Shown piece after piece: positions 13,433-33,775 of a DNA stretch of 64,000 bases. Every line of letters begins with the position of its first letter. Position 1 is the first letter of the stretch. This stretch comes from Mycobacterium sp. ITM-2016-00317 (lineage in GTDB: Bacteria > Actinomycetota > Actinomycetes > Mycobacteriales > Mycobacteriaceae): contig NZ_CP134399.1 of the NCBI RefSeq assembly GCF_002968295.1, forward strand, positions 248,001 through 312,000. The letters run 5' to 3'. Both the position numbers and the translations under genes were made by a program. A model generated the notes under the pieces. That model saw only the letters and a list, made by a program, of their open reading frames with translations. It was not told the DNA's origin and searched no databases.

Positions 13433-13915
13433 TCACAAGCGGCGTTCCAACAGCGGGGTGACCCGGAACTCCACCAGTTGACGCATGGTCAGCGCGGTGG
13501 TGGTCTGCTCCACCCCGTCGATGTCGAGGATCTGGCCGGCGATCCGGTAGAGGTCGTCGGCATCCCGTGCGACGACGTGGATCTGCAGGTCGATCGAACC
13601 GCTGAGCCCGAGCACCTCCAGCACCTCCGGGATGGCGGCGAGTTCGCCCGCCACGTACTCGAGCTTGCGCTGCACGACGGTGGTCAGGATGAACGCCGTG
13701 AGCGGATAGCCAAGGGCCGCAGGTGAAATGCGTCTCTCGAAAGGGCGCAGGCAGCCACTGGACTCCAGCTTGGCCAGTCGCGCCTGCACGGTGTTGCGGG
13801 ACAGGCCCGTGCGGTCTGCGATCGCCATGGCCGCCGCGCGGGGGTCCTCGTTGAGCGCGGTCAGGATGCGGGCGTCGATCGCGTCGACGGGCTTGCCGCC
13901 GGCCGGGCTGGTCAA
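13433..13915 (-). CDS. Lrp/AsnC family transcriptional regulator (MdeR-like by context)
   Basis: 160 residues: an N-terminal winged helix (DARILTALNEDPRAAAMAIADRTGLSRNTVQARLAKL) and a C-terminal RAM/ligand domain (LGLSGSIDLQIHVVARDADDLYRIAG). Lrp-family proteins bind amino acids or oxo-acids and usually control the divergent gene. Here that is a homodimeric 2-oxoacid dehydrogenase E1, the same pairing as mdeR-mdeB in Pseudomonas methionine/2-oxobutyrate catabolism. No ATG fits; the only plausible start in frame is TTG at 13915. A spaced inverted repeat at 13949-13992 is the likely operator. Confidence 0.85.
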   Translation of the reverse strand: MTSPAGGKPVDAIDARILTALNEDPRAAAMAIADRTGLSRNTVQARLAKLESSGCLRPFERRISPAALGYPLTAFILTTVVQRKLEYVAGELAAIPEVLEVLGLSGSIDLQIHVVARDADDLYRIAGQILDIDGVEQTTTALTMRQLVEFRVTPLLERRL

Positions 13916-13948
13916 AGTGCCCGCCGTCGGAGTCGGAAGAGATAGTGC

Positions 13949-13992
13949 ATCTGCGCATTATGCCCACGCGCTGCGCTGAAGGTTGCGCAGAT
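13949..13992. promoter_or_regulatory. Candidate Lrp-type operator between the regulator and the E1 gene
   Basis: Perfect 9-bp inverted repeat ATCTGCGCA (13949-13957) and TGCGCAGAT (13984-13992), 35 bp apart centre to centre, in the 132-bp divergent intergenic region. A weaker third half-site, ATCTGCAC, lies near 14018. Spaced half-sites fit an Lrp octamer wrapping DNA. Assignment is inferred. Confidence 0.55.
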
Positions 13993-14047
13993 CGCCGACA
14001 AGGCGTGGGATCGGTGGTCGATCTGCACTCGGCGAGAGGTGTCCGTG

Positions 14048-16402
14048 ATGACCGTCAGTATCCCGCAGTCCGGGGCCGCCCGCGGTGAGGTGCTGGCGGT
14101 GATCGAGCGCCACGTGCTGTGGTTGGCCACGGCGATGGTCCATCACGCCAACCGCGTCCGCCCCAACCCGTCCGGGCTCAAAGTCGGCGGGCACCAGGCG
14201 TCGTCGGCATCGATGATCTCGATCATGACCGCACTGTGGTTCGCGCACCTTCGGTCGGGGGACCGGGTGGCGGTCAAGCCGCACGCGTCACCGGTACTGC
14301 ACGCGATCAACTATCTGATCGGCGAACTCGACGCCACCTACCTGACCACCCTGCGCGAGTTCGGCGGACTGCAGAGCTATCCCAGCCGGAGCAAGGACCC
14401 CGATCCCGTCGACTATTCGACCGGTTCGGTGGGGATCGGGGCCACCGCACCGATCTGGGCCGCGCTGGCCCGCCGGTATGTGCACGCCCACTTCGGTCCC
14501 GACAGCGGTCTGGTCGATGCCGACCGGTCCGCCGGCGCCGCGCTGGGACGGCAGTACTCGCTGGTCGGCGACGCCGAGTTGGACGAGGGCGCGGTGTGGG
14601 AGGCGATCCTGGACCCGGCGGTCGCTGAATTCGGCGAGATCGTGTGGATCGTCGACATGAATCGTCAGTCGCTGGACCGGGTGGTGCCGCACATCGCGGC
14701 CGAGCGGCTCGAGCGGATGTTCGGCGCCGCCGGCTGGCAGGTGATCACGCTGAAGTTCGGGCGGCTGCTGGAATCGTTGTTCGCCCGTCCCGGCGGGCCG
14801 GCGCTGCGCGAGCGCATCGTGGCCATGCCGAACCCGGAGTACCAGCGGTTGCTGCGGTGCGACGCCGCCGAACTGCGCACCCGGTTGCCGGGGGACGGGC
14901 CGGGCCGCGCACAGGTCGCCGACCTCATCGCCGATCTCGACGACGAGACCTTGCTGGCGGCCGTCCGTAATCTGGGTGGTCACGATCTGGACCTGCTGTG
15001 CAACGCGCTCGGGCAGATCGACGACACCAGGCCCACGGTGTTGATCGCCTACACCGTCAAGGGTTACGGCCTTCCGACACAAGGGCATCCGCAGAACCAC
15101 TCGTCCCTGCTGACCGTGGCCCAGTACGAGGAGCTGGCCGCCGGACTCGGCATGGACCCCGACGATCCCTGGCGCGGTGTCGCGCCCGACAGCGACGCCG
15201 GTGCGCTGTGCGCGGCGACGCGGGAACGGCTGCGTCGGCCGGCCGTGCCGACGGCGGCGCCCGCGGCGATTCCCACCGACATCGGGCGCACCCCGGGCGG
15301 GACGTCCACCACCCAGGCCGCGCTGGGCCGCACCCTGCTGGACCTGAGCCGCGAGGCTCCCGACGCCGCCCGCCGGGTGGTGACGGTCAGCCCGGATGTC
15401 AGCTCGACGACCAATCTGGCCGGCTGGCTGAACAAGGTGGGGGTGTGGTCGCCGACCGAGCGCCGGGACTGGTTCGACGACGACGCCGAGACGATCATGC
15501 ACTGGCGCGAGCGGCCCACCGGACAGCACATCGAGCTCGGCATCGCCGAGACCAACCTGGTGGGCCTGATCGGCGAGCTGGGCGCCACCTGGAGCCGGTG
15601 GGGCAGCCCGCTCCTGCCGATCGGGGTGCTCTACGACCCGTTCGTCGAACGCGCGCTGGAACCCTGGTCCTACGGCATCTACGCCGGAGGTCAGTCGATC
15701 CTGGTGGGCACCCCGTCCGGGGTGACGCTGGCGGCCGAAGGCGGTGCGCACCAGTCGATCAAGACCCCATCGATCGGTCTCGAGCAGCCCGGCTGTGTCA
15801 GCTACGAGCCGGCGTTCGCGATCGACGTGGAATGGACACTGCTGGCCTGCATGGCCCGGCTGGGGCGTCCCGACGGCGGTTCGTCGTACCTGAGGTTGTC
15901 CACCCGGCCGGTCGACCAGCGGCTGGCGGCCGTGCCCGCCGATCCGGCGGCGCGGGAACGTCGCCGCCGCCAGGCCGTCGCCGGCGGCTACCTGCTGCGC
16001 CGCGGCGGGGATCCGGCGGTGACGTTGGTCGGGATGGGCGCGATGATGACCGAGACCCTCGCCGCCGCAGACCGCCTCGCCGACCAGGGCATCGCCGCGG
16101 ACGTGGTGTGCGTGACCAGCCCCGGTCGGCTCTTCGAGGCGCTCCAGGCCCGTCGCGGGCTCGGCGAAGGCCCCAGCTGGATCCTGGACCAGGTGTTCCC
16201 CGCCGGTCGGGCCGCCCCGATGGTGACGGTGCTCGACGGTCATCCGCACACCCTGGCGTTCCTGACCTCGATCCACCAGGTCCGGGGCGCGGCCCTGGGG
16301 GTGAGCCGGTTCGGCCAGGCGGGGTCGCTGCAGGACGTGTACCGCTACCACGGCATCGACGCCGACAGCATCGTCGCCGCCGCGCTCGACCTGACCTACT
16401 GA
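14048..16402 (+). CDS. Transketolase-like 2-oxoacid dehydrogenase E1 (AceE/MdeB type)
   Basis: 784 residues. Shares the layout of homodimeric E1 enzymes. The TPP domain has GDAELDEGAVWEAI followed by VDMNRQSLD (the GDG-x25-N thiamine motif). A central pyrimidine domain (HIELGIAETNLVGLIGELG) and a C-terminal transketolase domain follow. It is shorter than AceE (about 890-930), like MdeB, the 2-oxobutyrate dehydrogenase E1 of Pseudomonas. With E2/E3 from elsewhere it would oxidatively decarboxylate pyruvate or 2-oxobutyrate to acyl-CoA. ATG 14048 is preferred over GTG 14039 because GAGAGG (14033-14038) is correctly spaced for it. Divergent from an Lrp regulator. No mdeA (methionine gamma-lyase) neighbour, so the substrate is open. 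Confidence 0.8.
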   Translation: MTVSIPQSGAARGEVLAVIERHVLWLATAMVHHANRVRPNPSGLKVGGHQASSASMISIMTALWFAHLRSGDRVAVKPHASPVLHAINYLIGELDATYLTTLREFGGLQSYPSRSKDPDPVDYSTGSVGIGATAPIWAALARRYVHAHFGPDSGLVDADRSAGAALGRQYSLVGDAELDEGAVWEAILDPAVAEFGEIVWIVDMNRQSLDRVVPHIAAERLERMFGAAGWQVITLKFGRLLESLFARPGGPALRERIVAMPNPEYQRLLRCDAAELRTRLPGDGPGRAQVADLIADLDDETLLAAVRNLGGHDLDLLCNALGQIDDTRPTVLIAYTVKGYGLPTQGHPQNHSSLLTVAQYEELAAGLGMDPDDPWRGVAPDSDAGALCAATRERLRRPAVPTAAPAAIPTDIGRTPGGTSTTQAALGRTLLDLSREAPDAARRVVTVSPDVSSTTNLAGWLNKVGVWSPTERRDWFDDDAETIMHWRERPTGQHIELGIAETNLVGLIGELGATWSRWGSPLLPIGVLYDPFVERALEPWSYGIYAGGQSILVGTPSGVTLAAEGGAHQSIKTPSIGLEQPGCVSYEPAFAIDVEWTLLACMARLGRPDGGSSYLRLSTRPVDQRLAAVPADPAARERRRRQAVAGGYLLRRGGDPAVTLVGMGAMMTETLAAADRLADQGIAADVVCVTSPGRLFEALQARRGLGEGPSWILDQVFPAGRAAPMVTVLDGHPHTLAFLTSIHQVRGAALGVSRFGQAGSLQDVYRYHGIDADSIVAAALDLTY

Positions 16403-16446
16403 CCTCGCCACCGCGACATGGCCGGCCCGGCCGGTACGGGCACGCC

Positions 16447-16485
16447 TTGCGCACGCCCATGTTCTCTCCATAGAATATTTTCTAT
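16447..16485 (+). promoter_or_regulatory. Promoter of the acyl-CoA catabolic operon with overlapping GntR operator
   Basis: TTGCGC (16447-16452), 18 bp, TAGAAT (16471-16476). The inverted repeat ATAGAA-TATT-TTCTAT (16470-16485) covers the -10. A closely related sequence, ATAGACAATTTTCTTC, sits over the -10 of the GntR/FCD gene at 21275-21290. The two match at 12 of 16 positions, suggesting one repressor for both. Confidence 0.6.
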
Positions 16486-16504
16486 TGAGCTAGGAGGTGG
16501 CGGC

Positions 16505-17659
16505 ATGGTGCTGTCGGAGGAAGAGAAGGCCCTCGTCGAGACGGTGCGCGACTTCGTCGAGAAACAGGTCAAGCCGGTGGTACGCGACATCGAGCACGCC
16601 AACACCTATCCCGAAGAACTGATCGAGACGATGAAGGAGATCGGGATCTTCGGTCTCGCGATCCCCGAGCCGTACGGCTTCGGAGCGGTCTCGATGCCCT
16701 GCTACGTGGCCGTCACCGAGGAACTGGCCCGGGGCTGGATGAGCCTGGCCGGCGCGATGGGCGGGCACACCGTGGTCTCCAAGCTGATCGGGATGTTCGG
16801 CACCGAGGAGCAGAAGCAGCGGTACCTGCCGCGGATGGCCACCGGTGAACTGCGCACCACCATGGCGCTGACCGAACCCAGCGGCGGATCCGACCTGCAG
16901 GCCATGCGCACCGTCGCCCGCCGCGACGGCGACGGGTACGTCATCAACGGCAGCAAGACCTGGATCACCAACGCCCGCCGGGCCGGTCTGATCGCGTTGA
17001 TGTGCAAGACCGATCCCGACGCCCAGCCCGCCCACAGCGGCGTCTCGATCCTGCTCGTCGAGAAGGTGCCCGGTTTCACCGTCTCCAAGGACCTGCCCAA
17101 GCTGGGCTACAAGGGTGTGGAGAGCTGTGAACTGAACTTCACCGACTGCCGGGTGCCCGCCGACGCGCTGCTCGGCACCGTGGAGGGCAAGGGTTTCGCC
17201 CAGATGATGAAGGGGCTGGAGGTCGGCCGGCTGCAGGTGGCCGCGCGCGCCACGGGGGTGGCCCGGGCCGCCTTCGAGGACGCCCTGCGCTACGCCCAGG
17301 ACCGGGAGAGCTTCGGCAAACCGATCTGGCAGCACCAGTCGGTGGGCAACATGCTGGCCGACATGGGCACCAAGCTGGCTGCCGCACGCGCGTTGTTGCT
17401 CAGTGCCGCAGAGAAATTCGACTCCGGCGCCCGCTGCGACATGGAGGCGGGGATGGCCAAGCTGTTCGCGTCCGAAGTCGGGATGGAGATCGCGCTGGAT
17501 GCGGTCCGGGTCCACGGCGGCTACGGATACTCCACCGAGTACGACGTCGAACGGTACTTCCGCGACGCGCCGCTGATGATCGTCGGGGAGGGCACCAACG
17601 AGATCCAGCGCGGCGTCATCGCCAAGCAGCTGGTCAAGCGCGGCGGCCTCGACCGGTGA
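16505..17659 (+). CDS. Acyl-CoA dehydrogenase (first gene of the C5-CoA operon)
   Basis: 384 residues, standard ACAD length. FAD-dependent alpha,beta-dehydrogenation of an acyl-CoA. Visible motifs are TEPSGGSDLQAMRT, KTWITNARRA, the catalytic-base region VGEGTNEIQRGVIAKQLVKRGG, and VHGGYGYSTEYDVERYFRDA. ATG with GGAGG 7 nt upstream. GTGA overlap with the CoA-transferase gene shows coupling. Because the next genes make and split citramalyl-CoA, a short branched substrate such as methylsuccinyl-CoA (giving mesaconyl-CoA) is attractive, though known methylsuccinyl-CoA dehydrogenases are longer. Substrate not proven by sequence. Confidence 0.88.
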   Translation: MVLSEEEKALVETVRDFVEKQVKPVVRDIEHANTYPEELIETMKEIGIFGLAIPEPYGFGAVSMPCYVAVTEELARGWMSLAGAMGGHTVVSKLIGMFGTEEQKQRYLPRMATGELRTTMALTEPSGGSDLQAMRTVARRDGDGYVINGSKTWITNARRAGLIALMCKTDPDAQPAHSGVSILLVEKVPGFTVSKDLPKLGYKGVESCELNFTDCRVPADALLGTVEGKGFAQMMKGLEVGRLQVAARATGVARAAFEDALRYAQDRESFGKPIWQHQSVGNMLADMGTKLAAARALLLSAAEKFDSGARCDMEAGMAKLFASEVGMEIALDAVRVHGGYGYSTEYDVERYFRDAPLMIVGEGTNEIQRGVIAKQLVKRGGLDR

Positions 17660-18870
17660 TCCCGGCTTCCCCCGCCGCGGCGGGACCGCTTCCACTGCAA
17701 GGCATCACGGTACTGTCGCTCGAGCATGCCGTCGCGGCGCCGTTCGCCACCCGCCAGCTCGCCGATCTCGGCGCCAGGGTCATCAAGGTCGAGCGGCCGG
17801 GAACCGGGGACTTCGCCCGCTCCTACGACGACTCGGTCAACGGCTCGTCGAGCTACTTCGTGTGGCTCAACCGGTCCAAGGAGTCGATTGCGCTCGACGT
17901 CAAATCGCCGCACGGACACCAGGTTCTGCATGACCTGGCCGAGCGTGCCGACGTCATCGTGCAGAACCTGGGGCCGGGCGCCGCGGCGCGGCTGGGACTG
18001 TCCGCGGAGGACATCCGCGCGCGCGACCCCGGCAAGATCGTGGTGTCGGTGACCGGCTGGGGCAGCACCGGGCCGTGGGCCGACCGCAAGGCCTACGACC
18101 TGCTGGTCCAGTGCGAGACCGGTCTGGTGTCGCTGACCGGGACTCCCGACGAGGTGGCCAAGGTCGGGGTGTCGATCGCCGACGTCGCCGCCGGAATGTA
18201 CGCCTTCAGCGGCATCCTGGCGGCGCTGTACCGGCGCGCGGTCACCGGTGAGGGCGCCACCATCGAGGTGTCCCTGTTCGAGGCGCTGGCCGAATGGGTC
18301 GGCCAGCCCATGCATTTCACCGCGGGAGCCGGTCGCCAGCCCGGCCGGTTCGGGGCGCAGCACGCAACGATCGCGCCGTACGGACCCTTCGAGGCCGGCG
18401 ACGGGCACACGGTGCTGATCTCCATCCAGAACGAACCGGAGTGGGCACGCCTGTGCACCGAGGTTCTCGAATGTCCCGAGGCTGCCGCCGATCCGCGGTT
18501 CGCCTCGAGCACGTTGCGGGTGGCCCACCGCGACGAGGTCAACGACCTGGTCGCCAAGGCCTTTGCCGCACTGAGCACCGCAGAACTCGAAGCCCGCCTG
18601 AGCGCGGCGCGTATCGCGTTCGCCGGGGTGAACACCGTCAGCGAGTTCCTGGCGCATCCCGTGCTGGCCGAACGCGACCGCTGGCGCACGGTGGAGACCG
18701 AGAACGGCCCAGTGCAGGCGCTGCTTCCGCCCATCGACCTGGGTGTCGAACCCCGGATGGACGCGGTCCCCGCACTGGGGCAGAACACCGACGCTATCCT
18801 GACCGAGCTCGGCTACAGCCCGTCAGAAGTCACGGGATCGACGCCGTCGCAACACCGATCGGAGGCCTGA
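17656..18870 (+). CDS. Class III (CaiB/BaiF) CoA-transferase
   Basis: 404 residues. Family III CoA-transferases move CoA between acids through an aspartyl-CoA intermediate. The N-terminal Rossmann-like core (LSLEHAVAAPFATRQLADLGARVIKVERPG), the LDVKSPHG strand, and the candidate catalytic Asp in KAYDLLVQCETG are present, followed by SLFEALAEW. Pseudomonas itaconate operons use a CoA-transferase in this position, so succinyl-CoA:itaconate, mesaconate or methylsuccinate transfer is a reasonable inference. GTG start overlaps the dehydrogenase stop. The next gene begins 2 bp after its stop with a clear GGAGG. Confidence 0.88.
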   Translation: MIPASPAAAGPLPLQGITVLSLEHAVAAPFATRQLADLGARVIKVERPGTGDFARSYDDSVNGSSSYFVWLNRSKESIALDVKSPHGHQVLHDLAERADVIVQNLGPGAAARLGLSAEDIRARDPGKIVVSVTGWGSTGPWADRKAYDLLVQCETGLVSLTGTPDEVAKVGVSIADVAAGMYAFSGILAALYRRAVTGEGATIEVSLFEALAEWVGQPMHFTAGAGRQPGRFGAQHATIAPYGPFEAGDGHTVLISIQNEPEWARLCTEVLECPEAAADPRFASSTLRVAHRDEVNDLVAKAFAALSTAELEARLSAARIAFAGVNTVSEFLAHPVLAERDRWRTVETENGPVQALLPPIDLGVEPRMDAVPALGQNTDAILTELGYSPSEVTGSTPSQHRSEA

Positions 18871-18872
18871 CA

Positions 18873-19754
18873 ATGACCGAAGGGACCACAGCGGAGTCTG
18901 TCACGGGCCTGGAACGGTTCGTCGCCGACTGGCATCCGCAGCCGGTCAGCACCACCGACGCGATGGATGCGCGGCGCGCCACCGAGCTGGCGGCGACCCT
19001 GGATCTCGACGTCGTGCCGCAGCCGGGCGACGAGCTGCCCACCATGTGGCAGTGGGTCTACTTCACCGAGTTCCCGCCGACCGCGGAGCTCGGCGTCGAC
19101 GGCCACCCACGCGACGGCCACTTCCTGCCGCCGATCCCGCACCGGCGCCGGATGTTCGCCGGCGCGAGGTTGACCGTGCACAGCCCGCTCGTCCTGGGCC
19201 GTCCCGCGACCCGGCACGCAGAGGTGTTGTCCACCAAGGTCAAACACGGCAAGACCGGTGAGCTGCTGTTCGTGACCGTGGGCTACCGCTACGAGCAGGA
19301 CGGCGAGCACCGCCTGACCGAGGAACACGACCTGGTGTACCGCAGCGAGGCCGAATCGAGCACCTCCTTCACGCGGGTCACCGAACCCCTTGCACCCCAG
19401 GATGCTCCGTGGTCAGCGTGCCCCACCACGGGGCCGGTGCTGCTGTTCCGCTTCAGCGCGCTGACCGCCAATGCCCACCGCATCCACTACGACGAGGCCT
19501 ACACCACCGGAGTCGAGGGCTTCCCGGCGCTGGTGGTGCACGGTCCGCTGTTGGCCCTGTACATGTCCGAGCTGGCCCGGGCCCGCAGTGAGCGCCCGCT
19601 GACCGGGTTCCAGTTCAGGCTGATGCGGCCGGTTTTCGTCGGCGACGTGTTCCGCGCCCAGGGCACCCCCGACGCCGACGGCTCGGCGGCCGAGCTGTCA
19701 CTGGTGTCGGGCGCAGGCAATCTGCACGCCACCGCGCGGGCGACCTTCGGATGA
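18873..19754 (+). CDS. MaoC/HTD2-like (FAS1-like dehydratase) acyl-CoA hydratase, mesaconyl- or itaconyl-CoA hydratase type
   Basis: 293 residues forming a double hot-dog hydratase. The N-terminal half carries the FAS1-like dehydratase region (WQWVYFTEFPPTAELGVDGH...PPIPHRRRMFAG). The C-terminal half has the MaoC-type R-F-S-A-L-T-A-N-A-H-R-I-H-Y-D segment and the GLVVHGPL-like VVHGPLLALYM. This architecture is that of mesaconyl-C4-CoA hydratase and of itaconyl-CoA hydratase (Ich/RipB). Product would be (S)-citramalyl-CoA, the substrate of the next gene product. ATG 18873 with GGAGG; ATGA overlap downstream. Confidence 0.85.
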   Translation: MTEGTTAESVTGLERFVADWHPQPVSTTDAMDARRATELAATLDLDVVPQPGDELPTMWQWVYFTEFPPTAELGVDGHPRDGHFLPPIPHRRRMFAGARLTVHSPLVLGRPATRHAEVLSTKVKHGKTGELLFVTVGYRYEQDGEHRLTEEHDLVYRSEAESSTSFTRVTEPLAPQDAPWSACPTTGPVLLFRFSALTANAHRIHYDEAYTTGVEGFPALVVHGPLLALYMSELARARSERPLTGFQFRLMRPVFVGDVFRAQGTPDADGSAAELSLVSGAGNLHATARATFG

Positions 19755-20572
19755 CGGTGCTGCCGGCCGAGACGGTGCGGGCCGCGCGCTCGTTGTTGTT
19801 CGTCCCGGGTAGCCGCCCCGAGCGCTTCGCCAAGGCCGCGGCCGCACAACCCGATGTGGTGATCCTCGACCTCGAGGACGCGGTGGCCCCGTCCGACAAG
19901 GACGCCGCCCGCAGGCATGTCGAGTCGTGGCTGGCCGACGGCAACGCCGCACTGGTACGTATCAATGCCGCCGACACCCGTTGGTATGAGCAGGATCTGG
20001 CGATGGTCGGCCGACTCGGCGCCGCGACGATGCCGGCCAAGGCCGAGCGGCCCGAGCACCTCGCGCGGCTGGCCGAGGTGACGTCGGGCGCGCCCGTGGT
20101 GCCGCTGGTCGAGACCGCTGCAGCCCTGGCCGCCCTCGGCCCGCTCTGTGCGGTCGGTGCCGTGGTGCGGCTGGCGTTCGGGAGCATCGATCTGGCCAAC
20201 CAGCTCGGGGTGGATCCCGACGACCGGGAGGCTCTGCTGACGTTCCGCTCGATGCTGGTGGCGGCCTCGGCCGCGGCGGGGCTGGCGGCACCGATCGACG
20301 GTGTCACCCGGTCCTTCACCGAACCAGATTCGGTGACAGACGATTTCGGCTATGCCCGCCGCCTCGGTATGGGCGCGAAGCTGTGCATCCATCCGGCCCA
20401 GGTCGCCGCGGTGCACGCGGCGGCGGCGCCGTCGGCCGCCGAGGTGGAATGGGCGCAGAAGGTGGTCTCGGCAGCCGGGGACGGTTCGGCGGTGGCCCTG
20501 GACGGTCAGATGATCGACGTGCCGGTGGTCGAACGCGCCCGGCGGATCCTGCGGATCGCCGGCGCGGCCTGA
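19751..20572 (+). CDS. CitE-type CoA-ester lyase, probably (S)-citramalyl-CoA lyase
   Basis: 273 residues of the HpcH/HpaI aldolase (CitE-like) fold. Core motifs are RSLLFVPGSRPERFAKAA, VILDLEDAVAPSDKDAAR, LVRINAADTRWYEQD, GSIDLANQLGVDP and GMGAKLCIHPAQV. The conserved Arg, Glu and Asp residues that bind Mg2+ and the acid are present. Stand-alone CitE proteins next to a mesaconyl/itaconyl-CoA hydratase cleave citramalyl-CoA to pyruvate and acetyl-CoA. The alternatives, malyl-CoA or 3-hydroxy-3-methylglutaryl-like substrates, cannot be excluded. Last gene of the operon, 9 bp from the convergent GntR stop. Confidence 0.88.
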   Translation: MTVLPAETVRAARSLLFVPGSRPERFAKAAAAQPDVVILDLEDAVAPSDKDAARRHVESWLADGNAALVRINAADTRWYEQDLAMVGRLGAATMPAKAERPEHLARLAEVTSGAPVVPLVETAAALAALGPLCAVGAVVRLAFGSIDLANQLGVDPDDREALLTFRSMLVAASAAAGLAAPIDGVTRSFTEPDSVTDDFGYARRLGMGAKLCIHPAQVAAVHAAAAPSAAEVEWAQKVVSAAGDGSAVALDGQMIDVPVVERARRILRIAGAA

Positions 20573-20581
20573 CCGCAGCGG

Positions 20582-21265
20582 TCAGCCCAGCGTGCCGCGC
20601 GCGGCCAGGTGGTCGGCCAGCAGCGCGCCTGCATTCCGGATGTGTTGTGCCATGGCGGTTCTGGCCGCCTCTTCGTCACCGGCGCGCAGGTGCTCGATGA
20701 TGGCCCGGTGGTCGTGGGCGGAGGCCTCGGGCCAGCCCTCCACCGCGGCGAAGAACTTGCGGGGGGAGTAAGGCAGGGTGGCCTTGACCAGCCAGCGGAT
20801 CTTGCGTGAGCCCGCCAGCCGGTAGATGGTCTCGTGGAACCGGTGGTTGAGTCGTTCGACGGCGTCGTAATCCTTGTCGGCGGCCGCCTGTTCGAGTTCC
20901 GCCTGGATCTGCTCGAGTTCGCTGAGCCGGTCGGCGTCGATGACCCGCGCCGCGCGTGCGGTCAGCTCGCCGCCCAGCAGCGCCTGTGCGGCGTAGACGT
21001 CGCGGATGTCCTCGCTGGACAGCGCGGTCACCGAGAACCCGCGCCTGGGCTCGACGGTCAGGAAGCCCTCGTTCTGCAGCAGCAGCAGGCCCTCCCGGGC
21101 CGGCGTCGCGCTGATACCGAGGTCGTCGGCCACGGTCTCGGGCCGGATGAACTCCCCGGCGCGCAGCTGTCCGGACACGATCAGCTCCCGGACATGTGCG
21201 GCGGCGAGATCGCTCAGCCGCAGGATCGGCTGCCGTTTGCGCCCGCTGCCGCCTGCCGTCGTCAC
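20582..21265 (-). CDS. GntR-family regulator, FadR/FCD subfamily
   Basis: 227 residues: N-terminal winged helix (LRAGEFIRPETVADDLGISATPAREGLLLLQNEGFL) and an all-helical FCD ligand domain with metal-binding candidates in LNHRFHETIY, AHDHRAIIEHL and AQHIRNAG. FCD regulators commonly sense small carboxylates. It converges on the CitE operon and shares an operator-like sequence with that operon's promoter, so it is the likely repressor of 16505-20572 and of itself. The GTG start at 21265 lies about 7 nt after a TATATT -10, indicating a leaderless transcript. Confidence 0.88.
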   Translation of the reverse strand: MTTAGGSGRKRQPILRLSDLAAAHVRELIVSGQLRAGEFIRPETVADDLGISATPAREGLLLLQNEGFLTVEPRRGFSVTALSSEDIRDVYAAQALLGGELTARAARVIDADRLSELEQIQAELEQAAADKDYDAVERLNHRFHETIYRLAGSRKIRWLVKATLPYSPRKFFAAVEGWPEASAHDHRAIIEHLRAGDEEAARTAMAQHIRNAGALLADHLAARGTLG

Positions 21266-21271
21266 TGATCG

Positions 21272-21290
21272 AATATAGACAATTTTCTTC
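21272..21290 (-). promoter_or_regulatory. Leaderless promoter of the GntR/FCD gene with overlapping operator
   Basis: On the minus strand TATATT (21277-21272) is followed after six bases by the GTG start codon, the spacing of mycobacterial leaderless promoters. The operator-like ATAGACAATTTTCTTC (plus strand 21275-21290) overlaps it and resembles the site at 16470-16485. Confidence 0.55.
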
Positions 21291-21519: not shown

Positions 21520-21609
21520 TCGCGGGAGAAGTTAGCGGTGTCGCTCTTCTGTGGCGCCCGGGCGGCGCCCGGGCAACGGCCGTCGGACCGGGGGAGGACG
21601 TGAGGTCGG

Positions 21610-22350: not shown

Positions 22351-22401
22351 CAGCCACCGGGCAGGCACCGAACATGCACGAAATCGAACAGGGGACAACC
22401 G

Positions 22402-26552: not shown

Positions 26553-26577
26553 GCGACACAACCAGAAAGGAGGCCCC

Positions 26578-27330
26578 GTGCGGGCCGCAATCGTGACCGG
26601 CGCCAGCCGCAACATCGGGCTGGCGATCGCCGGTCGACTGCTCCACGACGGCTGGAAGGTCTGTCTGACAGGGCGCGACGAAGCCGGGGTGGCCGCAGCC
26701 GCGGCCACCCTCGCCGAAGGGGCGGCCGAGGGATCGGTGCGCTGGTTCGCCGGGGACATCGGAGTCCCCGATGACGTGACGCACCTGGTCGGTGAGGTCG
26801 AAAGTGCTTGGGGCGGCGTCGATGCCGTGATCAACAACGCCGGCATCCGGGCGCACGGGCCGATCGAGGCAATCCCCGTGACGGATTGGGACGCGGTGCT
26901 GTCCACCGTGATGACCGGTGCGTTCCTGACCACGCAGGCGGTGCTGCCGCAGATGAAGCAGCGGGGCTGGGGCCGCATCGTCAACATCGCCGGGATGTCC
27001 GGGCAGTCCGGCGCCGCCGGCCGGGTACCGGTGGTGGCGGCCAAAGCCGGGCTGATCGGGCTGACCAAGGCGTGCGCACACGAGGCCGACGGCACCGGGG
27101 TCACCGTCAACGCGGTGTCCCCCGGGCACATCGACACCGAACGACGCCCGGGTCTCGGCGACGCAGGCGTGGCAGCAGAGCACTACCGGCACCTGCGCGA
27201 CCATGGCAACCCCGTGGGCCGGATCGGATCGGTCGACGATGTCGCAGGCGCGGTGTCCTACCTGTGCGGTCCGGACGCGGGATACGTGACCGGACAAGTG
27301 ATCTCGGTGAACGGCGGTGCCTACATGTGA
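26578..27330 (+). CDS. Short-chain dehydrogenase/reductase-like protein lacking the catalytic tyrosine
   Basis: 250 residues, full SDR length. The NAD(P) site is intact (VTGASRNIGLAIAGRLL, then NNAGIRAHG), as is the C-terminal GGAYM end. The active-site Y-x3-K is read as V-V-A-A-K (RVPVVAAKAGLIGL), so Tyr is Val. Ser of the triad (NIAGMSGQ) and Lys remain. Either the enzyme uses another acid or base, or it is a non-catalytic or altered relative. GTG start with AAAGGAGG just upstream, 25 bp after tctA. It is the link between transporter and PrpD genes in the operon. Confidence 0.85.
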   Translation: MRAAIVTGASRNIGLAIAGRLLHDGWKVCLTGRDEAGVAAAAATLAEGAAEGSVRWFAGDIGVPDDVTHLVGEVESAWGGVDAVINNAGIRAHGPIEAIPVTDWDAVLSTVMTGAFLTTQAVLPQMKQRGWGRIVNIAGMSGQSGAAGRVPVVAAKAGLIGLTKACAHEADGTGVTVNAVSPGHIDTERRPGLGDAGVAAEHYRHLRDHGNPVGRIGSVDDVAGAVSYLCGPDAGYVTGQVISVNGGAYM

Positions 27331-27391
27331 GTCGGCCCCCGGTTCCAGGAGCCGCGCTCCGCACCCCGCACACCCTCGAAAGGACCAACAG

Positions 27392-28771
27392 ATGGCTGCC
27401 GATATCAGCACACCGACCCGCCGACTCGCCCAGTACCTCAGTGCCACCGCGGACACCCCGCTGCCGCCCGCGGTGATCCACAAGACCAAGCACCACATCA
27501 TCGACACCGTCGCCGCGATGGTCTCCGGGGCGCAGCTGCCGCCCGGGAAGCGGGCGCTGGCCTATGTCGCAGGCAGCGCCGGAGGTCCGAGCGTATTGGT
27601 CGGCGGTCAGCGCACCGTGGCCGTGGAAGCCGCACTGGCCAACGGGATGTCGGCGCACGCCGACGAAACCGACGACTCGCACGCCCGCTCGATCAGCCAC
27701 CCCGGCTGTGCGGTGGTGCCCGCCGCGCTGGCCGTCGGTGACCTGCAGCGCAGCAGCGGCGAGCAGATCCTGCGCGCGGTGGCCGCCGGCTACGACGTCG
27801 GCACCCGAGTGGTGCTCAGCCTCGGAAAGCCGGTGCTGAACACCGAATCCAGCGGCCGCAGCACCCACGCGTACTGCGGGCTGTTCGGCGCCACCGCGAC
27901 CGCCGCCTCGCTGTACCGGCTCGGCGAGGAACAGGCGCGGCACGCGTTGTCCTATGCGGCACAGAGCGCTTCGGGTGTGACCAGCTGGGTGCGCGACCCC
28001 AACCACGTCGAGAAGGCCTTCGTCTTCGCAGGCATGCCCGCCTCCAACGGCGTCCGCGCCGCGGCGATGGTGGCCTCCGGCTGCGACGGGGTGCCGGACG
28101 TGTTCAGCGGCGTCCCCAACTTCCTGGACGCGCTGTCCGACGACGTCCGCCGCGACGAACTCGCCGACGGGCTCGGCGAGCGCTACGAGATCATGCACAC
28201 CAACATCAAGAAGTTCGCCGTCGGCTCCCCGGCGCAGGCCGCCGTGCAGGCGATGCTGGAACTCGTCGAGGAGGAGCCGATCGACCCGGAGCAGGTCACC
28301 GGGATCCGCATCGTGCTGCCCCACGACCTGTGCCGCGTCGTGGACGACCGGTCCATGCCCGACATCAACTGCCAGTACCTGGTGGCCGGCACCCTGGTGG
28401 ACCGCGCGTTCACCTTCGCGATGGCGCACGACGACGACCGGATGACCGATCCGACGATCATGGCCCTGCGGGGGCGCACCGAGCTGGTGGCCGACCCCGA
28501 GAAGGCCGGTGTGCGTACCGCGGACGTCACGGTCAGCCTGCGCGACGGCCGCACCCGGCAGCGCTACGTCGGGGCCGTCCGCGGCACCGTCGATGATCCG
28601 ATGTCCGACGACGAGGTGACCGCCAAGGCCGTGGACCTGATGGAACCGATTCTGGGTTCCGCTGCCACCGCCGACCTGATGGACCGGCTGTGGACACTGG
28701 AGAACTGCGCCGACATCAGCGAGGTCACCGCGATGCTGACCGCCGATGCCACAGTGCGGGTCTCCCGATGA
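27392..28771 (+). CDS. MmgE/PrpD family protein, paralogue 1
   Basis: 459 residues. MmgE/PrpD proteins include 2-methylcitrate dehydratase (PrpD) and cis-aconitate decarboxylase (IRG1/ACOD1). Conserved positions seen: HADETDDSHARSISHPG (the Asp/His loop), STHAYCGLFGATATAA, NHVEKAFVFAGMPASNG (Lys region) and HTNIKKFAVGSPAQAAVQA. It is the most divergent of the four, with an N-terminus of about 20 extra residues, and could act on a different acid. ATG 27392 with AAAGGA upstream. An ATGA overlap links it to paralogue 2. Confidence 0.85.
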   Translation: MAADISTPTRRLAQYLSATADTPLPPAVIHKTKHHIIDTVAAMVSGAQLPPGKRALAYVAGSAGGPSVLVGGQRTVAVEAALANGMSAHADETDDSHARSISHPGCAVVPAALAVGDLQRSSGEQILRAVAAGYDVGTRVVLSLGKPVLNTESSGRSTHAYCGLFGATATAASLYRLGEEQARHALSYAAQSASGVTSWVRDPNHVEKAFVFAGMPASNGVRAAAMVASGCDGVPDVFSGVPNFLDALSDDVRRDELADGLGERYEIMHTNIKKFAVGSPAQAAVQAMLELVEEEPIDPEQVTGIRIVLPHDLCRVVDDRSMPDINCQYLVAGTLVDRAFTFAMAHDDDRMTDPTIMALRGRTELVADPEKAGVRTADVTVSLRDGRTRQRYVGAVRGTVDDPMSDDEVTAKAVDLMEPILGSAATADLMDRLWTLENCADISEVTAMLTADATVRVSR

Positions 28772-30030
28772 CCAGTTCCGCGATGACATCGAGCACCGAA
28801 CTCGCGCCGGGCGTGCCGACCACCGCGGCGGCGCTGGCCCGGTGGGCCTGCGAACTGCAGCCCAGCCAGGCCGATCTCGACCTCGCCGGGATTGCGCTGG
28901 TCGACACCGTGGCGGTCGCGCTGGCCGCGACCGGCCATCCCCTGCTGACGGTGACCGCCGGTCTGCCGGAGCCGGCGAGGTGGGCCGCACAGGCCCACGT
29001 CGTCGACTATGACGACCTGCACCTGCCGTCGACCACGCACATCAGCACGGTGTGCGTGCCCGCGGCGGCCGCGGTCGGCGGCGATGCCAGGGCGTATCTG
29101 GCCGGTGCCGGCGTGATGGCCAGGATCGGCAGCGCGCTGGGCTGGAACCACTACTCCCGGGGCTGGCATGCCACGTCGACGACCGCACCGATGGCGGCCG
29201 CCGTGGTGGCGGCGACGGCGCGCGGCTTCAGCGCCGAGGACACGGCCAGGGCGATGGCGCTGGCCGTCTCGAGTGCGGGCGGCGTGCAGCGCGCGTTCGG
29301 CAGCGACGCCAAGGCGATTCAGGTCGGCCTGGCGGTGGAAGCGGGTATCCGCGCCGCCGACCTGGTGGCCCACGGCGCGAGCGCGGACCCGCGGGTGCTG
29401 GACGCCTGGCTGGCCCTGGTCTCGGAGCCACCGTTCGACCTGGCGCTCGACTCGCCCGAAGCGGTGCCGGGCGGCCTGGCGGTCAAGGTGTACCCGTGCT
29501 GCTACGCGCTGCAGCGACCCATCGCCTGCACCTCGGAACTGGCCGCCGGACTGGAATCCGATCAGGTGGACCGCATCGACGTGTGGGTCACCGAATCGGC
29601 GATCCAGCCTCTGGTGCACCATCGGCCCACCTCCGGGCTGGAAGCCAAGTTCTGCCTCGAGCACGCGGTGGCCGTCGCGGTCACCGACCGGGTACCGGGA
29701 TTCGACAGCTTCTCCGACGCGGCGGTGCGCCGCCCCGAGGTCGCGCGCCTGACCCGCAGCGTGACCGTGCACGTCGCACCAGGCGGCAACGGCCTTCTCG
29801 AGGACGAGGTCCGGGTGGCGCTGACGACGACCGACGGGCGCGAGCTCACCGGGTCGATCGACATCCCGCCGGGGGCGCCCGGCCGCCCGGTCACCCGGGA
29901 TGAACTGGCGCAGAAGGTACGTGACTGTGCCGGCGACCAAGCCGACGCCGTACTGGCGGCCGGCTGGGGCGACATCGCCGGCCTACTCAGGGGTACGACC
30001 ACCCCGCCGACACAGAAGGATGCTTCATGA
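28768..30030 (+). CDS. MmgE/PrpD family protein, paralogue 2
   Basis: 420 residues, the shortest of the four: the N-terminal helical domain is reduced. Family positions: QAHVVDYDDLHLPSTTHIS (the usual HPG is HIS), HYSRGWHATSTTAPMAAA, GSDAKAIQVGLAVEAG, KVYPCCYALQRPIA. Loss of Pro-Gly after the active-loop His and the short N-terminus suggest altered or lost activity, or a partner role. Start overlaps the previous stop (ATGA), as does its end with the next gene, so the three are probably made in equal amounts. Confidence 0.83.
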   Translation: MTSSAMTSSTELAPGVPTTAAALARWACELQPSQADLDLAGIALVDTVAVALAATGHPLLTVTAGLPEPARWAAQAHVVDYDDLHLPSTTHISTVCVPAAAAVGGDARAYLAGAGVMARIGSALGWNHYSRGWHATSTTAPMAAAVVAATARGFSAEDTARAMALAVSSAGGVQRAFGSDAKAIQVGLAVEAGIRAADLVAHGASADPRVLDAWLALVSEPPFDLALDSPEAVPGGLAVKVYPCCYALQRPIACTSELAAGLESDQVDRIDVWVTESAIQPLVHHRPTSGLEAKFCLEHAVAVAVTDRVPGFDSFSDAAVRRPEVARLTRSVTVHVAPGGNGLLEDEVRVALTTTDGRELTGSIDIPPGAPGRPVTRDELAQKVRDCAGDQADAVLAAGWGDIAGLLRGTTTPPTQKDAS

Positions 30031-31394
30031 TCGACCTGACCGAACTGGCCGCCGAGGCGCTCGCCGTTGCCGACCGTGTCGAGGGGGAGGTGCGCGCCGA
30101 GGCGGTGCGCTCGTTGCTCAACGTGGTGGGAACGACGATCGGTGCCGCGGCCACCACCGAGACCGACATCGTCGCCGCGGGGATGCGGCACAGCGGCGCC
30201 CCGGGCGATGCGCCGGTACCCGGACGCGCCGACACCTTCGATCCGTCGTCCGCTGCGCTGATCACCGGATTCGCCGCTCATCTCGACGATTTCGACGACA
30301 CCCACCTGGCCACCGTGGTGCACCCGGGAGCCGCCACCCTGGGCGCCGCACTAGGGGCGAGCTGGATGCGCGACCGCAGCACCGGCGAGCTGCTGCCCGA
30401 CCGCAGCGGTGACGAACTGCTGCGCGCCTTCGCCGTCGGCATCGAGCTGCAACTGCGCGTCGCGGTGGCGATGTCGCCGTCGCACTACGACGCGGGCTGG
30501 CACATCACCGGGACCGTGGGATCGCTCGGCGCCGCCACCACCGCGGCCATGCTGCTGGGACTGGATGCCGAGACCACCGGCCGCGCACTGGGAATCGCGT
30601 CCAGCATGACGATCGGTCACCGCGAGGGCTTCGGCACGATGAACAAGCCGCTGCACCCCGGCAAGGCCGCCGCCAACGGGCTGGTGGCCGCCGCGGCCGC
30701 CGCCCGCGGCCTCGACGCATCGCCGTCGGCGCTCGACGGCCCCCGCGGCTACTTCGCGGTGATGGCCCCGGAACTGGACCCCGGCCTGCTCGTCGACGGT
30801 TGGGGCGAGCGGTGGGAACTGTTGTCCAACACCTACAAACCGTATCCGTGCGGCATCGTCACGCATCCCGCGATCGAGGCCGCCGAGCGGCTGCACCAGG
30901 CGGTCGGCGGACGGGAGATCGACCGTGTCGAGGTCCGGTGCCATCCGCTGGTGGTGGAGCTGACCGGCAACCCGGATCCGGGCGACGGGCTGGCCGCACG
31001 GTTCTCCACCGTGCACGGAGTGGCCGCGGGCGTGCTCGGCGGCGCCGTCGACCTCGGCTCCTACGACGACGCCTACGTGCGCTCGGCGGCGCTGATCGCC
31101 ATGCGGGCCAGGGTCGAGTTGATCCCGGATCCCGAGATCCCGCGTGCCACCGCCCATCTGACGGTCACGCTGACCGACGGAAGCACCGAGAAGTGCACCG
31201 TCGAGAACGCGCGGGGCAGCCTGGAGGCGCCGCTGACCGACGACCAACTGGATCGCAAGGTCCTGGCTCTGGTGGAACGCACCCTGCCCGGCCGCGAGAA
31301 GGAGATCGTCGAGACCTCCCGGGCCGTCGCCGCCGCAGCAGGCGCGCGCGGCTGGTTCTCCGCCCTGGCCGCCGCCGACACGAAAGGCAACTGA
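30027..31394 (+). CDS. MmgE/PrpD family protein, paralogue 3
   Basis: 455 residues, standard family length. All active-site-like segments are present: HLDDFDDTHLATVVHPGAA, HYDAGWHITGTVGSLGAA, GTMNKPLHPGKAAANG and NTYKPYPCGIVTHPAIEA. With paralogue 4 it is closest to the cis-aconitate decarboxylase/PrpD pattern (D-x3-T-x5-H, later H, K and K/Y). Possible reactions are dehydration of a citrate analogue or decarboxylation of an aconitate-like acid. It is cytosolic. The gap to the next gene is 3 bp. Confidence 0.87.
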   Translation: MIDLTELAAEALAVADRVEGEVRAEAVRSLLNVVGTTIGAAATTETDIVAAGMRHSGAPGDAPVPGRADTFDPSSAALITGFAAHLDDFDDTHLATVVHPGAATLGAALGASWMRDRSTGELLPDRSGDELLRAFAVGIELQLRVAVAMSPSHYDAGWHITGTVGSLGAATTAAMLLGLDAETTGRALGIASSMTIGHREGFGTMNKPLHPGKAAANGLVAAAAAARGLDASPSALDGPRGYFAVMAPELDPGLLVDGWGERWELLSNTYKPYPCGIVTHPAIEAAERLHQAVGGREIDRVEVRCHPLVVELTGNPDPGDGLAARFSTVHGVAAGVLGGAVDLGSYDDAYVRSAALIAMRARVELIPDPEIPRATAHLTVTLTDGSTEKCTVENARGSLEAPLTDDQLDRKVLALVERTLPGREKEIVETSRAVAAAAGARGWFSALAAADTKGN

Positions 31395-31397
31395 CCC

Positions 31398-32720
31398 ATG
31401 AGCTCGGACATCACCGCCCGTACAGCGGCTTTCGTCGCCGGACTGAACTGGACCGACGTACCCGCCTCCGCCCAGGCGGCCGCCCGCAGGACCGCCGCCA
31501 ACGTGATCGGCCTGTCGGTCGGCGCGGCGCACACCCCGGCGGCCGAGGCCGCGGTGGCCGCCGCAGGAGATCTCGGCCTGTCGGGCCCGGCCCAGGTGCT
31601 GGGTCGCGCTGAGACGCTGACCCCGCCGTGGGCGGCCCTGGTCAACGGATTGACCGCCCACGTCGAGGACTTCGACGACACCTACCTGGCGTGCATCCTG
31701 CATCCCGGTGCGCCGGTGGTCCCGGCGGCGCTGGCTGCCGCCGAACTCACCGGTGCCGACGGGGCCACGCTGATGGCCGGGGTGGTGGCCGGCGTGGAGG
31801 TCGCCAGCCGGATCGGTGATGCGCTGTGGCCCAGCCACTTCGACCGCGGCTGGCATGTCACCGCCACCACCGGCCCCGTCGGTGCGGCGTGTGCGGCCGC
31901 CCGCGTCCTCGGGCTCGACGCGGCGCAGACCGCGCACGCCATCGCGATCGCGGCCACGCAGGCGGCCGGCCACACCGAACAACTCGGATCGATGACCAAG
32001 TCGTTCCAGGTGGGCCGTGCGGCCGCAACCGGTGTGGAGGCGGCGCTGCTGGCGCAGCAGGGATTCACCGGTCCGGTGGAGCCGCTGGCCGGCCGGCGCG
32101 GGATGTCCGCCCTGATGGCCGACGACGCGGACTGGTCGACGGTGGACGACCTGGGTTCCCGCTGGCTGGTCGAACAGAACGCGCTGAAACCGTACAGCTG
32201 CGGCATCGTCAGCCATCCCGTGATCAACGCCGGCGTCTTCCTGCGCGCGCAGGGCATCGACCCGGCGCGCGTCGCGTCGGTGGCGCTGGAGGTGCATCCG
32301 CGGGTGCTCGACGTCATGGGCGTCACCGAGCCGGAAACCGGCCTGCAGAGCAAGTTCTCGGTCTACCACTGCTTCGCCGTCGGATTGGTGCGGGGCGCGG
32401 GAGGCCCGGCGGAGTTCAGTGACGACGCCGCGCTCGATCCGCAGGTCGTCCGGGTGCGCGGCCTGGTCGCCGTGAGCCTCGACGGCGCTCTGGCCGCCGA
32501 CTCGTGCCGGATGACCGCCACCCTCGACGACGGCAGCACCATCGCCCACACCGTCGAGCACGCCACCGGCAGCACAGCGGCGCCGATGACCGACGATCAG
32601 CTGCGGGACAAGGTACTTCGGCTGACCGAACGTCTCGACGACCCGGGCCGGCTGTGGGACACCGCCTGGCGGATCGACGAGATCGGCTCGGCCGCTGAGT
32701 TGTTCGCGGTAGCCAGGTAG
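31398..32720 (+). CDS. MmgE/PrpD family protein, paralogue 4
   Basis: 440 residues. Shares with paralogue 3 the segments HVEDFDDTYLACILHPGAPV, HFDRGWHVTATTGPVGAA, GSMTKSFQVGRAAATG and NALKPYSCGIVSHPVINA. Full length and intact active-site pattern make it a likely enzyme. The two could also form a hetero-oligomer, since MmgE/PrpD proteins are dimers. TAG stop, then 8 bp to a possible ATT start of the AbrB-type gene. Confidence 0.87.
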   Translation: MSSDITARTAAFVAGLNWTDVPASAQAAARRTAANVIGLSVGAAHTPAAEAAVAAAGDLGLSGPAQVLGRAETLTPPWAALVNGLTAHVEDFDDTYLACILHPGAPVVPAALAAAELTGADGATLMAGVVAGVEVASRIGDALWPSHFDRGWHVTATTGPVGAACAAARVLGLDAAQTAHAIAIAATQAAGHTEQLGSMTKSFQVGRAAATGVEAALLAQQGFTGPVEPLAGRRGMSALMADDADWSTVDDLGSRWLVEQNALKPYSCGIVSHPVINAGVFLRAQGIDPARVASVALEVHPRVLDVMGVTEPETGLQSKFSVYHCFAVGLVRGAGGPAEFSDDAALDPQVVRVRGLVAVSLDGALAADSCRMTATLDDGSTIAHTVEHATGSTAAPMTDDQLRDKVLRLTERLDDPGRLWDTAWRIDEIGSAAELFAVAR

Positions 32721-32779
32721 GGGCACCGATTTCGCCCGTCATCGGCCGCTGGCTGCAGCTGGCGCTCGTCGCCACGGCG

Positions 32780-33775
32780 GTGTCGGCGGGCTTCGTCGCC
32801 GTCGGCCTGCCGACACCGATGCTGTTCGGCGGGCTGGTCGGCGCACTGATCTACGCGCTGGCCCGCCCGTCGGCCCCGCTGCGCCTGCCCGGGTCCTGGT
32901 TCCAGGCCGGGCAGGCGGTGGTGGGCGTGATCGTCGGTTCGATGATCGACTGGGAGACGCTGGCCGGACTGGGCACCCGCTGGCTGATCGTGCTGGGCAT
33001 CTCCTGCTTCGCGCTGCTGGTCAGTGTGCTGGTCGGCAGTCTGCTGACCCGCCGCGGTGCGAGCCCGGCGACGGCGGCGTTCTCGTCGATCGCCGGCGGC
33101 GCCATCGGCCTGACCGCGATGGCCGACGATCTCGGGGCGGACTCGCGGGTGATCGCGGTGCTTCAGTACCTGCGGCTGCTGGTGGTGCTGCTGACGTTGC
33201 CGGTCGTGGTCACCGTCGTGTTCGGCGCACACGGTGTCGGCGACGCGCTCGCGGCCACCGGCGGCGACTGGCACGTCGACCTGCCGTTCGTCGCGATCGC
33301 ACTGGTCGGCGGGGTACTGGTCGGCAAGCTGGTGCGGCTGCCGTCACCGGCGCTGCTCGGCCCGCTGCTGTTCGCCGCGCCGCTGACCCTGGTGCCGTAC
33401 TTCTCCGGCGCCGGAGTGCCGGTGCTGGTGGCGGGGCTGGGCTACCTCGCGATCGGGCTGCAGGTCGGCCTCAAGTTCACCGTCGAGAGCCTGCGGTCGA
33501 TCGGCCGGATGATGCCGATCGCGATGCTGACCATCGCGGTGACCCTGTTGGGTTGCGCGGGGCTGGGCTGGATCCTGACCCTGACCACCGACGCCACCCC
33601 GCTGGACGCGTACCTGGCCACCACCCCCGGCGGTATCTACGCGGTGATGGGCACCGCGGCCTGGCTCGGCGCCGACGTCACCTTCGTGGCGGCCGCCCAG
33701 ATCCTGCGGATGCTGATCGTGCTCGCGCTGGCGCCGTTCCTGGCCGCCTATTTCCGGCGGCGTGCGTCAGGTTGA
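32780..33775 (+). CDS. AbrB-type membrane protein (COG3180 family), last gene of the tct/PrpD operon
   Basis: 331 residues from GTG 32780, with about nine to ten membrane helices and two internally similar halves (GQAVVGVIVGSMIDW and GLQVGLKFTVESL; AFSSIAGGAIGLTAMADDLGADSR and TTPGGIYAVMGTAAWLGADVTFVAAAQILRML). This is the AbrB family, described as regulators or putative transporters. The frame is open upstream to ATT 32729, preceded by AGGTAGGGG. Starting there would complete the first helix (WLQLALVATAV), so the real start may be this rare codon. Substrate unknown; export or import of a pathway acid fits the context. Confidence 0.82.
   Translation: MSAGFVAVGLPTPMLFGGLVGALIYALARPSAPLRLPGSWFQAGQAVVGVIVGSMIDWETLAGLGTRWLIVLGISCFALLVSVLVGSLLTRRGASPATAAFSSIAGGAIGLTAMADDLGADSRVIAVLQYLRLLVVLLTLPVVVTVVFGAHGVGDALAATGGDWHVDLPFVAIALVGGVLVGKLVRLPSPALLGPLLFAAPLTLVPYFSGAGVPVLVAGLGYLAIGLQVGLKFTVESLRSIGRMMPIAMLTIAVTLLGCAGLGWILTLTTDATPLDAYLATTPGGIYAVMGTAAWLGADVTFVAAAQILRMLIVLALAPFLAAYFRRRASG

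Follow-up and report, generated by a model that had tools for sequence, protein, structure and literature searches.

Gene content and insertion of the block

A 64,000-nucleotide stretch of the genome of Mycobacterium sp. ITM-2016-00317 (hereafter the window; contig NZ_CP134399.1, positions 248,001 to 312,000) carries, between pckG and fadD, a block of genes that we consider a candidate island for the catabolism of branched dicarboxylates. Gene families in the window were assigned from open reading frame lists, translations and Pfam and NCBIfam scans (Table 1). Operon 1 (16505-20572) encodes an acyl-CoA dehydrogenase (ACAD) of the FadE3 type, a CoA-transferase, a hydratase and a lyase, with gene ends that overlap or nearly touch. 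Operon 2 (23520-33775) encodes TctC, TctB and TctA, a short-chain dehydrogenase (SDR), four MmgE/PrpD paralogues (A1, B2, C3 and D4) and an AbrB-family protein. All three Tct proteins are above their Pfam cut-offs, which places them in the tripartite tricarboxylate transporter (TTT) family. An Lrp gene and a thiamine pyrophosphate (TPP) enzyme gene are placed between pckG and operon 1. An earlier note on this DNA, made from the letters alone, had listed the gene families at 13433-33775; each of them is found where the note put it or no more than tens of bases away, and the TPP enzyme (14039-16402) and the AbrB-family protein (32780-33775) went unnamed in it.

The block is an insertion. Twelve fetched loci of the genus contain a FadE3 of 74-78% identity, and nine of them also hold pckG and fadD. 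The spacing between these two genes is 67-149 bp in four of the nine and 1.0-2.5 kb in the other five, while it is 22.5 kb in the window, where the promoter-like stretch TTGACACCTGTCAA before fadD is retained. From the short spacing in relatives, the inserted part extends from 13433 to about 35936, slightly past the end of the range in the earlier note. That note had proposed a search for the same gene order in other mycobacteria, and such a search finds three further genomes of the genus (G225, G366 and G386) in which fadE3, abrB and the genes between them, 16 in all, are collinear, so the gene order at 16505-33775 is more than chance. No match to pckG or fadD is found within 12 kb on either side of the block in these three genomes, where it is thus located elsewhere.

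The lyase is present at 65% identity or more in 6 of 248 genomes of the genus, and D4 (E ≤ 1e-100) in 4, all within those 6; the four have one block in common and are not independent events. In G226, G341 and G038 (another genus), and also, in a different order, on contig 2 of G199, operon 1 genes are present and the 18-20 kb seen contain no operon 2. The named near relatives of the hydratase belong to Mycobacterium and Mycolicibacterium.

Table 1. Features of the inserted block, in window coordinates
Feature	Position	Strand	Basis or remark
Inserted block	13433..35936	.	between pckG (end 13432) and fadD (35991-37511)
Lrp/AsnC-family regulator	13433..13915	-	Pfam
TPP enzyme, aceE/transketolase-like	14039..16402	+	Pfam/NCBIfam scans
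24-bp palindrome CTCCATAGAATATTTTCTATTGAG	16466..16489	+	15 bp 5' of fadE3; probable GntR/FCD operator
FadE3-type ACAD	16505..17659	+	Pfam; chain 4iv6 match
Class III CoA-transferase (CoA_transf_3), Ict-like	17656..18870	+	Pfam; Pseudomonas comparison
HTD2/MaoC-type hydratase, Ich-like	18867..19754 (start 18867 or 18873)	+	Pfam 24.2 bits, cut-off 22; solved chains
HpcH/HpaI CitE-type lyase, Ccl-like	19751..20572	+	Pfam; solved chains
GntR/FCD regulator	20582..21265	-	Pfam; proposed to bind the 24-bp palindrome
Half site, weak, uncertain	21276..21289	+	before gntR; 3 mismatches to 14-base core
GntR/UTRA regulator	21610..22350	+	Pfam
IclR-family regulator	22402..23217	+	Pfam
Tandem element TTCCCGCTNNACGG at 23265 and 23285	23265..23301	+	upstream of tctC; possible regulator site
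TctC substrate-binding protein	23520..24524	+	PF03401, 69.5 bits
TctB	24535..25005	+	PF07331, 61.2 bits
TctA permease	25008..26552	+	PF01970, 441.2 bits
SDR	26578..27330	+	profile scans
MmgE/PrpD paralogue A1	27392..28771	+	PF03972, PF19305; several known active-site positions unusual
MmgE/PrpD paralogue B2	28768..30030	+	PF03972, PF19305; candidate isomerase serving operon 1
MmgE/PrpD paralogue C3	30027..31394	+	PF03972, PF19305
MmgE/PrpD paralogue D4	31398..32720	+	PF03972, PF19305
AbrB-family (PF05145) membrane protein	32780..33775	+	last gene of conserved core
TetR regulator	33748..34434	-	within insertion, outside conserved core
RPE65/carotenoid-oxygenase-family protein	34422..35936	+	within insertion, outside conserved core

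CoA-transferase, hydratase and lyase of operon 1

The last three genes of operon 1 resemble the Ict-Ich-Ccl set of Pseudomonas in sequence. In the Protein Data Bank the hydratase best matches chain 8huc, with 199 bits, followed by 8khg, which is named itaconyl-CoA hydratase, with 198 bits; no other chain exceeds 21.1 bits. Its alignment retains the HRIHYD and LVVHGPL stretches, in line with an Ich-type hydratase. The CoA-transferase is 52-55% identical to Ict of three Pseudomonas loci and retains the AYDLL[VI]Q stretch. In one search direction, Ict of P. fragi finds it as the best match in the whole genome (55%, 445 bits), ahead of a single stretch of 204 bits and a two-piece gene at 4.06 Mb (199 + 151 bits), which argues for orthology to Ict. 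The lyase scores 172 bits with the solved chains 8khl/9nzb and 112 bits with 1z6k/6aq4, which we take to be Rv2498c, and 142 bits with the NCBIfam model RipC_Ccl (cut-off 375). We propose that it is an (S)-citramalyl-CoA lyase; for these last three steps the assignment is by homology.

The FadE3-type dehydrogenase

The first enzyme of operon 1 matches chain 4iv6, named FadE3, with 763 bits and is 33-35% identical to the dehydrogenase of three Pseudomonas loci. Its surroundings were compared over 80 named ich loci, the best 80 matches of a contig scan, sorted by title into 19 actinobacterial loci and 61 others. FadE3 at 65% identity or more over more than 300 residues is found in 11 of the 19 actinobacterial loci and in none of the 61 others, 30 of which contain an ACAD of 27-45% identity; one further actinobacterial locus (L076) with a 78% FadE3 stretch of 110 residues was left out of the count. 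FadE3 thus seems to take in actinobacteria the place held by the methylsuccinyl-CoA dehydrogenase (Mcd) in proteobacteria. Within the genus, 28 genomes have a FadE3 of at least 84% identity, and 10 of the 27 loci examined (G187 was left out) have ich nearby. From this position we propose that FadE3 catalyzes the step from methylsuccinyl-CoA to mesaconyl-CoA. A limited literature search turned up no paper on the function of the FadE3 solved as 4iv6.

In G225, G160, G200 and G309 an apparent glycogen-debranching gene, recognized by eye, flanks the fadE3 region (L160 in G225, 11683-12000); this setting may be the earlier location of the fadE3 unit. The own-genome protein most similar to P. fragi Mcd (48%; L236, C1:4052001-4072000) is encoded next to a CoA-transferase gene split over two frames. 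We considered this 4.06-Mb locus as a possible further methylsuccinate cluster and rejected it, as its predicted proteins, named by eye, look like a cluster of the beta-oxidation type.

Upstream elements of the two operons

A 24-bp palindrome, CTCYATAGAATATTTTCYATAGAG, occupies 16466-16489 and ends 15 bp 5' of fadE3. Over 28 upstream regions (27 genus loci and G038) and allowing up to 5 mismatches, it is found in 19 of 19 loci with the GntR/FCD regulator at 60% identity or more and in 2 of 9 loci without it; many of these loci are near relatives and the cases are not independent. Within the window, divided into 639 tiles of 100 bp, the next best match has 9 mismatches. A wider search covered 236 loci (3.17 Mb, overlapping and selected around these genes), and every site with up to 6 mismatches lies before fadE3 except one, which lies before ich in G104, a locus with ich, ccl and gntR and without fadE3. 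The palindrome links fadE3 and ich to the GntR/FCD gene, and we infer that the GntR/FCD protein binds it at 16466-16489. Operon 2 has a tandem TTCCCGCT..ACGG element upstream instead, which is kept before tctC in three other island genomes (L057, L058 and L059) with single changes in the second copy.

The four MmgE/PrpD paralogues

Both PF03972 and PF19305 are above cut-off in A1, B2, C3 and D4, and the family fold was seen in a prediction for B2. One possible reading is that the four are 2-methylcitrate dehydratases or cis-aconitate decarboxylases, in which case the island would produce itaconate or operate a methylcitrate branch. We set these roles aside on scores and regard them as very improbable: the best score with the NCBIfam PrpD models is 42.1 bits, far below the cut-off of 950, with no model listed for B2, and iminodisuccinate epimerase and the B. 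subtilis protein 7bra outscore cis-aconitate decarboxylase for all four paralogues. 7bra itself is without shown decarboxylase activity according to the excerpted text of PMC12290011.

The known active-site positions are conserved in B2 and C3; in D4, Phe replaces Tyr148. A1 deviates at Tyr148 and His152, and also at Lys202 in the MAFFT but not in the phmmer alignment. Even so, A1 keeps 80-85% identity across the other island genomes, and the same active-site changes recur in most of its plasmid relatives. B2 has Asp in place of the Glu91 found in 10 of 10 proteins of the methylsuccinate isomerase (Msi) clade, and Gln in place of their His three residues after Lys202, which sets it apart from Msi and iminodisuccinate epimerase. 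Its predicted fold is near that of iminodisuccinate epimerase, and other family members align nearly as well. From its position, its active-site residues and this predicted fold, B2 is the candidate isomerase likely to serve operon 1. Its subfamily contains at least 120 relatives of 53% identity or more.

Phylogeny was assessed with a tree of 51 proteins, which carries long-branch warnings and includes one row (L058 prpB2) with a too-early start (556 residues). One of the eleven rows labelled isomerase by position (L153) is placed outside the isomerase clade. A second TTT-SDR-PrpD cluster exists in the own genome (L070, C1:4418001-4438000), and its PrpD pieces look broken.

Related gene runs in other genomes

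Relatives of B2 at E ≤ 1e-50 are found in 3 of 345 genomes of the class, including this one, and in Nocardiopsis potens; a plasmid collection gave no match at 1e-40. In two other actinobacteria (L114 and L157) B2 stands in one run with fadE3 and ict. The N. potens run reads gntR (minus strand), ict, a class I fumarase family gene, a DASS carrier, ich, B2, fadE3 and ccl, and the G471 run B2, ict and fadE3. The class I fumarase family genes in runs of the operon 1 type (L114 and L187) are above the Pfam and below the NCBIfam FumA cut-offs. In G423, B2 shares a contig with TctCBA and A1-, C3- and D4-like genes.

No TctA is found near ich in the 80 named loci, the best 80 matches, and single TctC-like genes are found in 7 of them. 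G309 has a different TTT-PrpD cluster, separated by one carrier gene from the fadE3, CoA-transferase fragment and ich that follow it; five of the cluster's proteins are 82-95% identical to those of the own-genome second cluster at 4.42-4.43 Mb. Annotated isocitrate/isopropylmalate dehydrogenases are present in the Pacificitalea and Variovorax clusters, and dehydrogenases beside modules of the operon 2 type are a hint towards hydroxylated acids. By eye, an isocitrate/isopropylmalate dehydrogenase-like gene also adjoins the operon 2 type cluster of G423 (L188, C213, 2192-3259).

Proposed pathway and alternatives

We give a little more belief than doubt to the reading that the block is an inserted two-operon catabolic island which imports C5 branched dicarboxylates and turns them into acetyl-CoA and pyruvate. 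TctCBA of operon 2 would import the acid or acids, and the MmgE/PrpD enzymes would alter their stereochemistry or hydration, with B2 isomerizing for operon 1 and A1, C3 and D4 acting on further carboxylates. The CoA-transferase would form methylsuccinyl-CoA or itaconyl-CoA, the ACAD would oxidize methylsuccinyl-CoA to mesaconyl-CoA, the hydratase would form (S)-citramalyl-CoA, and the lyase would split it to acetyl-CoA and pyruvate. A two-operon branched-dicarboxylate island is the best reading of the locus. Homology speaks for the last three steps of operon 1, position for the dehydrogenase and isomerase steps (for B2 also active-site residues and fold), and linkage for the proposed coupling to operon 2.

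Several observations weigh against it. On the side of operon 1, Mcd of P. fragi matches FadE3 of the window only third (34%, 198 bits), after one ACAD encoded at 4.06 Mb (48%, 383 bits) and another at 4.69 Mb, so that by sequence FadE3 is not an orthologue of the characterized Mcd. FadE3 also has a role outside the proposed route: in the fetched stretch, 12 of the 27 genus loci lack ict, ich and ccl but contain fadE3 and gntR, 5 contain fadE3 with none of these other four genes, and a FadE3 of about 75% identity is widespread in the genus. None of the operon 1 enzymes reaches an NCBIfam equivalog cut-off. The G471 genome has no ich at E ≤ 1e-10, and another contig of G423 has gntR (minus strand), ict, a class I fumarase family gene, ich and ccl without fadE3. 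On the side of operon 2, the Msi clade of the 51-protein tree holds none of the four PrpDs, and P. fragi Msi finds its best match in the second TTT cluster of the own genome, with B2 seventh (64 bits). The palindrome is absent from the upstream regions searched 5' of operon 2. Proteobacterial plasmid modules of the operon 2 type show no match to ich, ccl or an Ict-like protein (above 50%) in the 21-25 kb seen, and some proteobacterial modules adjoin beta-decarboxylating dehydrogenases.

Some of these points would fit two unrelated pathways that were joined by transfer and stand side by side, operon 1 for a C5 dicarboxylate and operon 2 for some other carboxylate such as a di- or tricarboxylate bearing a hydroxyl group. 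On the plasmids, the stretch seen around the TctCBA-SDR-AbrB-PrpD-FCD modules contains none of ict, ich and ccl, the conserved upstream elements differ between the two operons, and the two types are on separate contigs in G423. We hold this rather unlikely, as all D4-bearing genomes are among those with the lyase, though by way of one shared block, another TTT-PrpD cluster adjoins fadE3-ich in G309, and B2 shares a run with fadE3 and ict in two other actinobacteria.

The use of other beta-hydroxyacyl-CoA esters by operon 1, similar to HMG-CoA or malyl-CoA, is improbable in our estimate. CitE-type lyases can be broad, Rv2498c being reported as a lyase of both (S)-citramalyl-CoA and (R)-HMG-CoA (PMC6689899), and the unreached equivalog cut-offs and the fadE3-gntR pairs standing alone would agree with such substrates; but the hydratase and the transferase are closest to itaconate-pathway enzymes, and the runs in L114 and L187 also include class I fumarase family genes.

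Extending the C5 dicarboxylate reading, the Actinobacteria may have assembled a methylsuccinate/itaconate unit of their own on an Ict-Ich-Ccl core, in which a FadE3-type dehydrogenase and the B2 clade replace Mcd and Msi, and which a few mycobacteria would have linked to a TTT importer and three additional PrpDs, through which further branched acids enter it. This extension is tentative, and we doubt it more than we believe it. If true, some mycobacteria would have a dedicated importer for the use of branched dicarboxylates, together with a regulator whose operator is defined, FadE3 would gain a testable substrate, and the B2 subfamily would be a candidate for a second origin of dicarboxylate isomerases among MmgE/PrpD proteins.

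Comparison with known systems

An itaconate pathway with extra ACAD and MmgE/PrpD roles is described for Pseudomonas and Cupriavidus in excerpts of PMC12290011 and PMC9875883. The island shares with that cluster (ich, mcd, msi, ict, ccl; PA0878-PA0886) the homologous CoA-transferase, hydratase and lyase in one operon, the ACAD and MmgE/PrpD genes alongside and a carboxylate importer near. It differs in having a FadE3-type ACAD instead of Mcd, four PrpDs in a second operon and outside the Msi clade, and a TTT importer instead of PA0884-0886, which the cited part of PMC12599236 calls a TRAP transporter. The analogy to the Pseudomonas itaconate/methylsuccinate cluster drawn in the earlier note is borne out for the hydratase (8huc/8khg), for the Ict best match and for a lyase nearer to 8khl/9nzb than to 1z6k/6aq4; it does not extend by descent to the ACAD, at 33-35% identity, or to any PrpD. 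Its suggestion that PrpD-type steps on C5/C6 acids feed operon 1 found no support, and the operons have different conserved upstream elements. The available literature with the phrase methylsuccinate isomerase, as far as its excerpts go, concerns proteobacteria.

The ability to break down itaconate would not in itself be a novelty for a mycobacterium; for M. tuberculosis it is known through Rv2498c (PMC6689899), and this genome has a matching locus too. The M. tuberculosis itaconate operon has no adjoining transporter like PA0884-0886 in the cited part of PMC9875883, and PMC11086914 reports isolates of the M. avium and M. abscessus complexes that were unable to use itaconate. The island and the Rv2498c itaconate/leucine pathway, both of the same genus, have in common a final CitE-type lyase of one superfamily. 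The window lyase is however closer to 8khl than to 1z6k/6aq4, so Rv2498c is not its nearest relative among the solved lyases, and the own genome has a separate locus of the Rv2498c type at 3.94 Mb, where the 12 kb seen contain neither TTT nor PrpD genes. At this locus (L166, C1:3930001-3942000) the lyase is near 6aq4 (327 bits), and its neighbours look by eye like branched-chain keto acid dehydrogenase, MaoC, ACAD and carboxylase genes.

Operon 2 has its counterpart in alphaproteobacterial modules on Pacificitalea pDY25-A and Paracoccus versutus pTAV3, which share TctCBA, SDR, AbrB, several PrpDs and an FCD regulator. Unlike the island, these give no match to ict, ich, ccl or FadE3 over the 21-25 kb seen; Pacificitalea has dehydrogenases of the tartrate and isocitrate/isopropylmalate types nearby, and Paracoccus a tricarballylate dehydrogenase.

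Neighbouring genes

The TPP enzyme at 14039-16402 resembles a homodimeric pyruvate dehydrogenase E1 or a transketolase. Its relatives are located about 6-15 kb from fadE3 in L159 (G225), L201 (G200) and L235 (G309), and Lrp adjoins it also in L159 and L201. To the right of the insertion (35991-40828), genes for an acyl-CoA synthetase, enoyl-CoA hydratase-like and CoA-transferase-like proteins and an amidohydrolase form one run, in which the ech gene right of fadD occupies 37520-38410.

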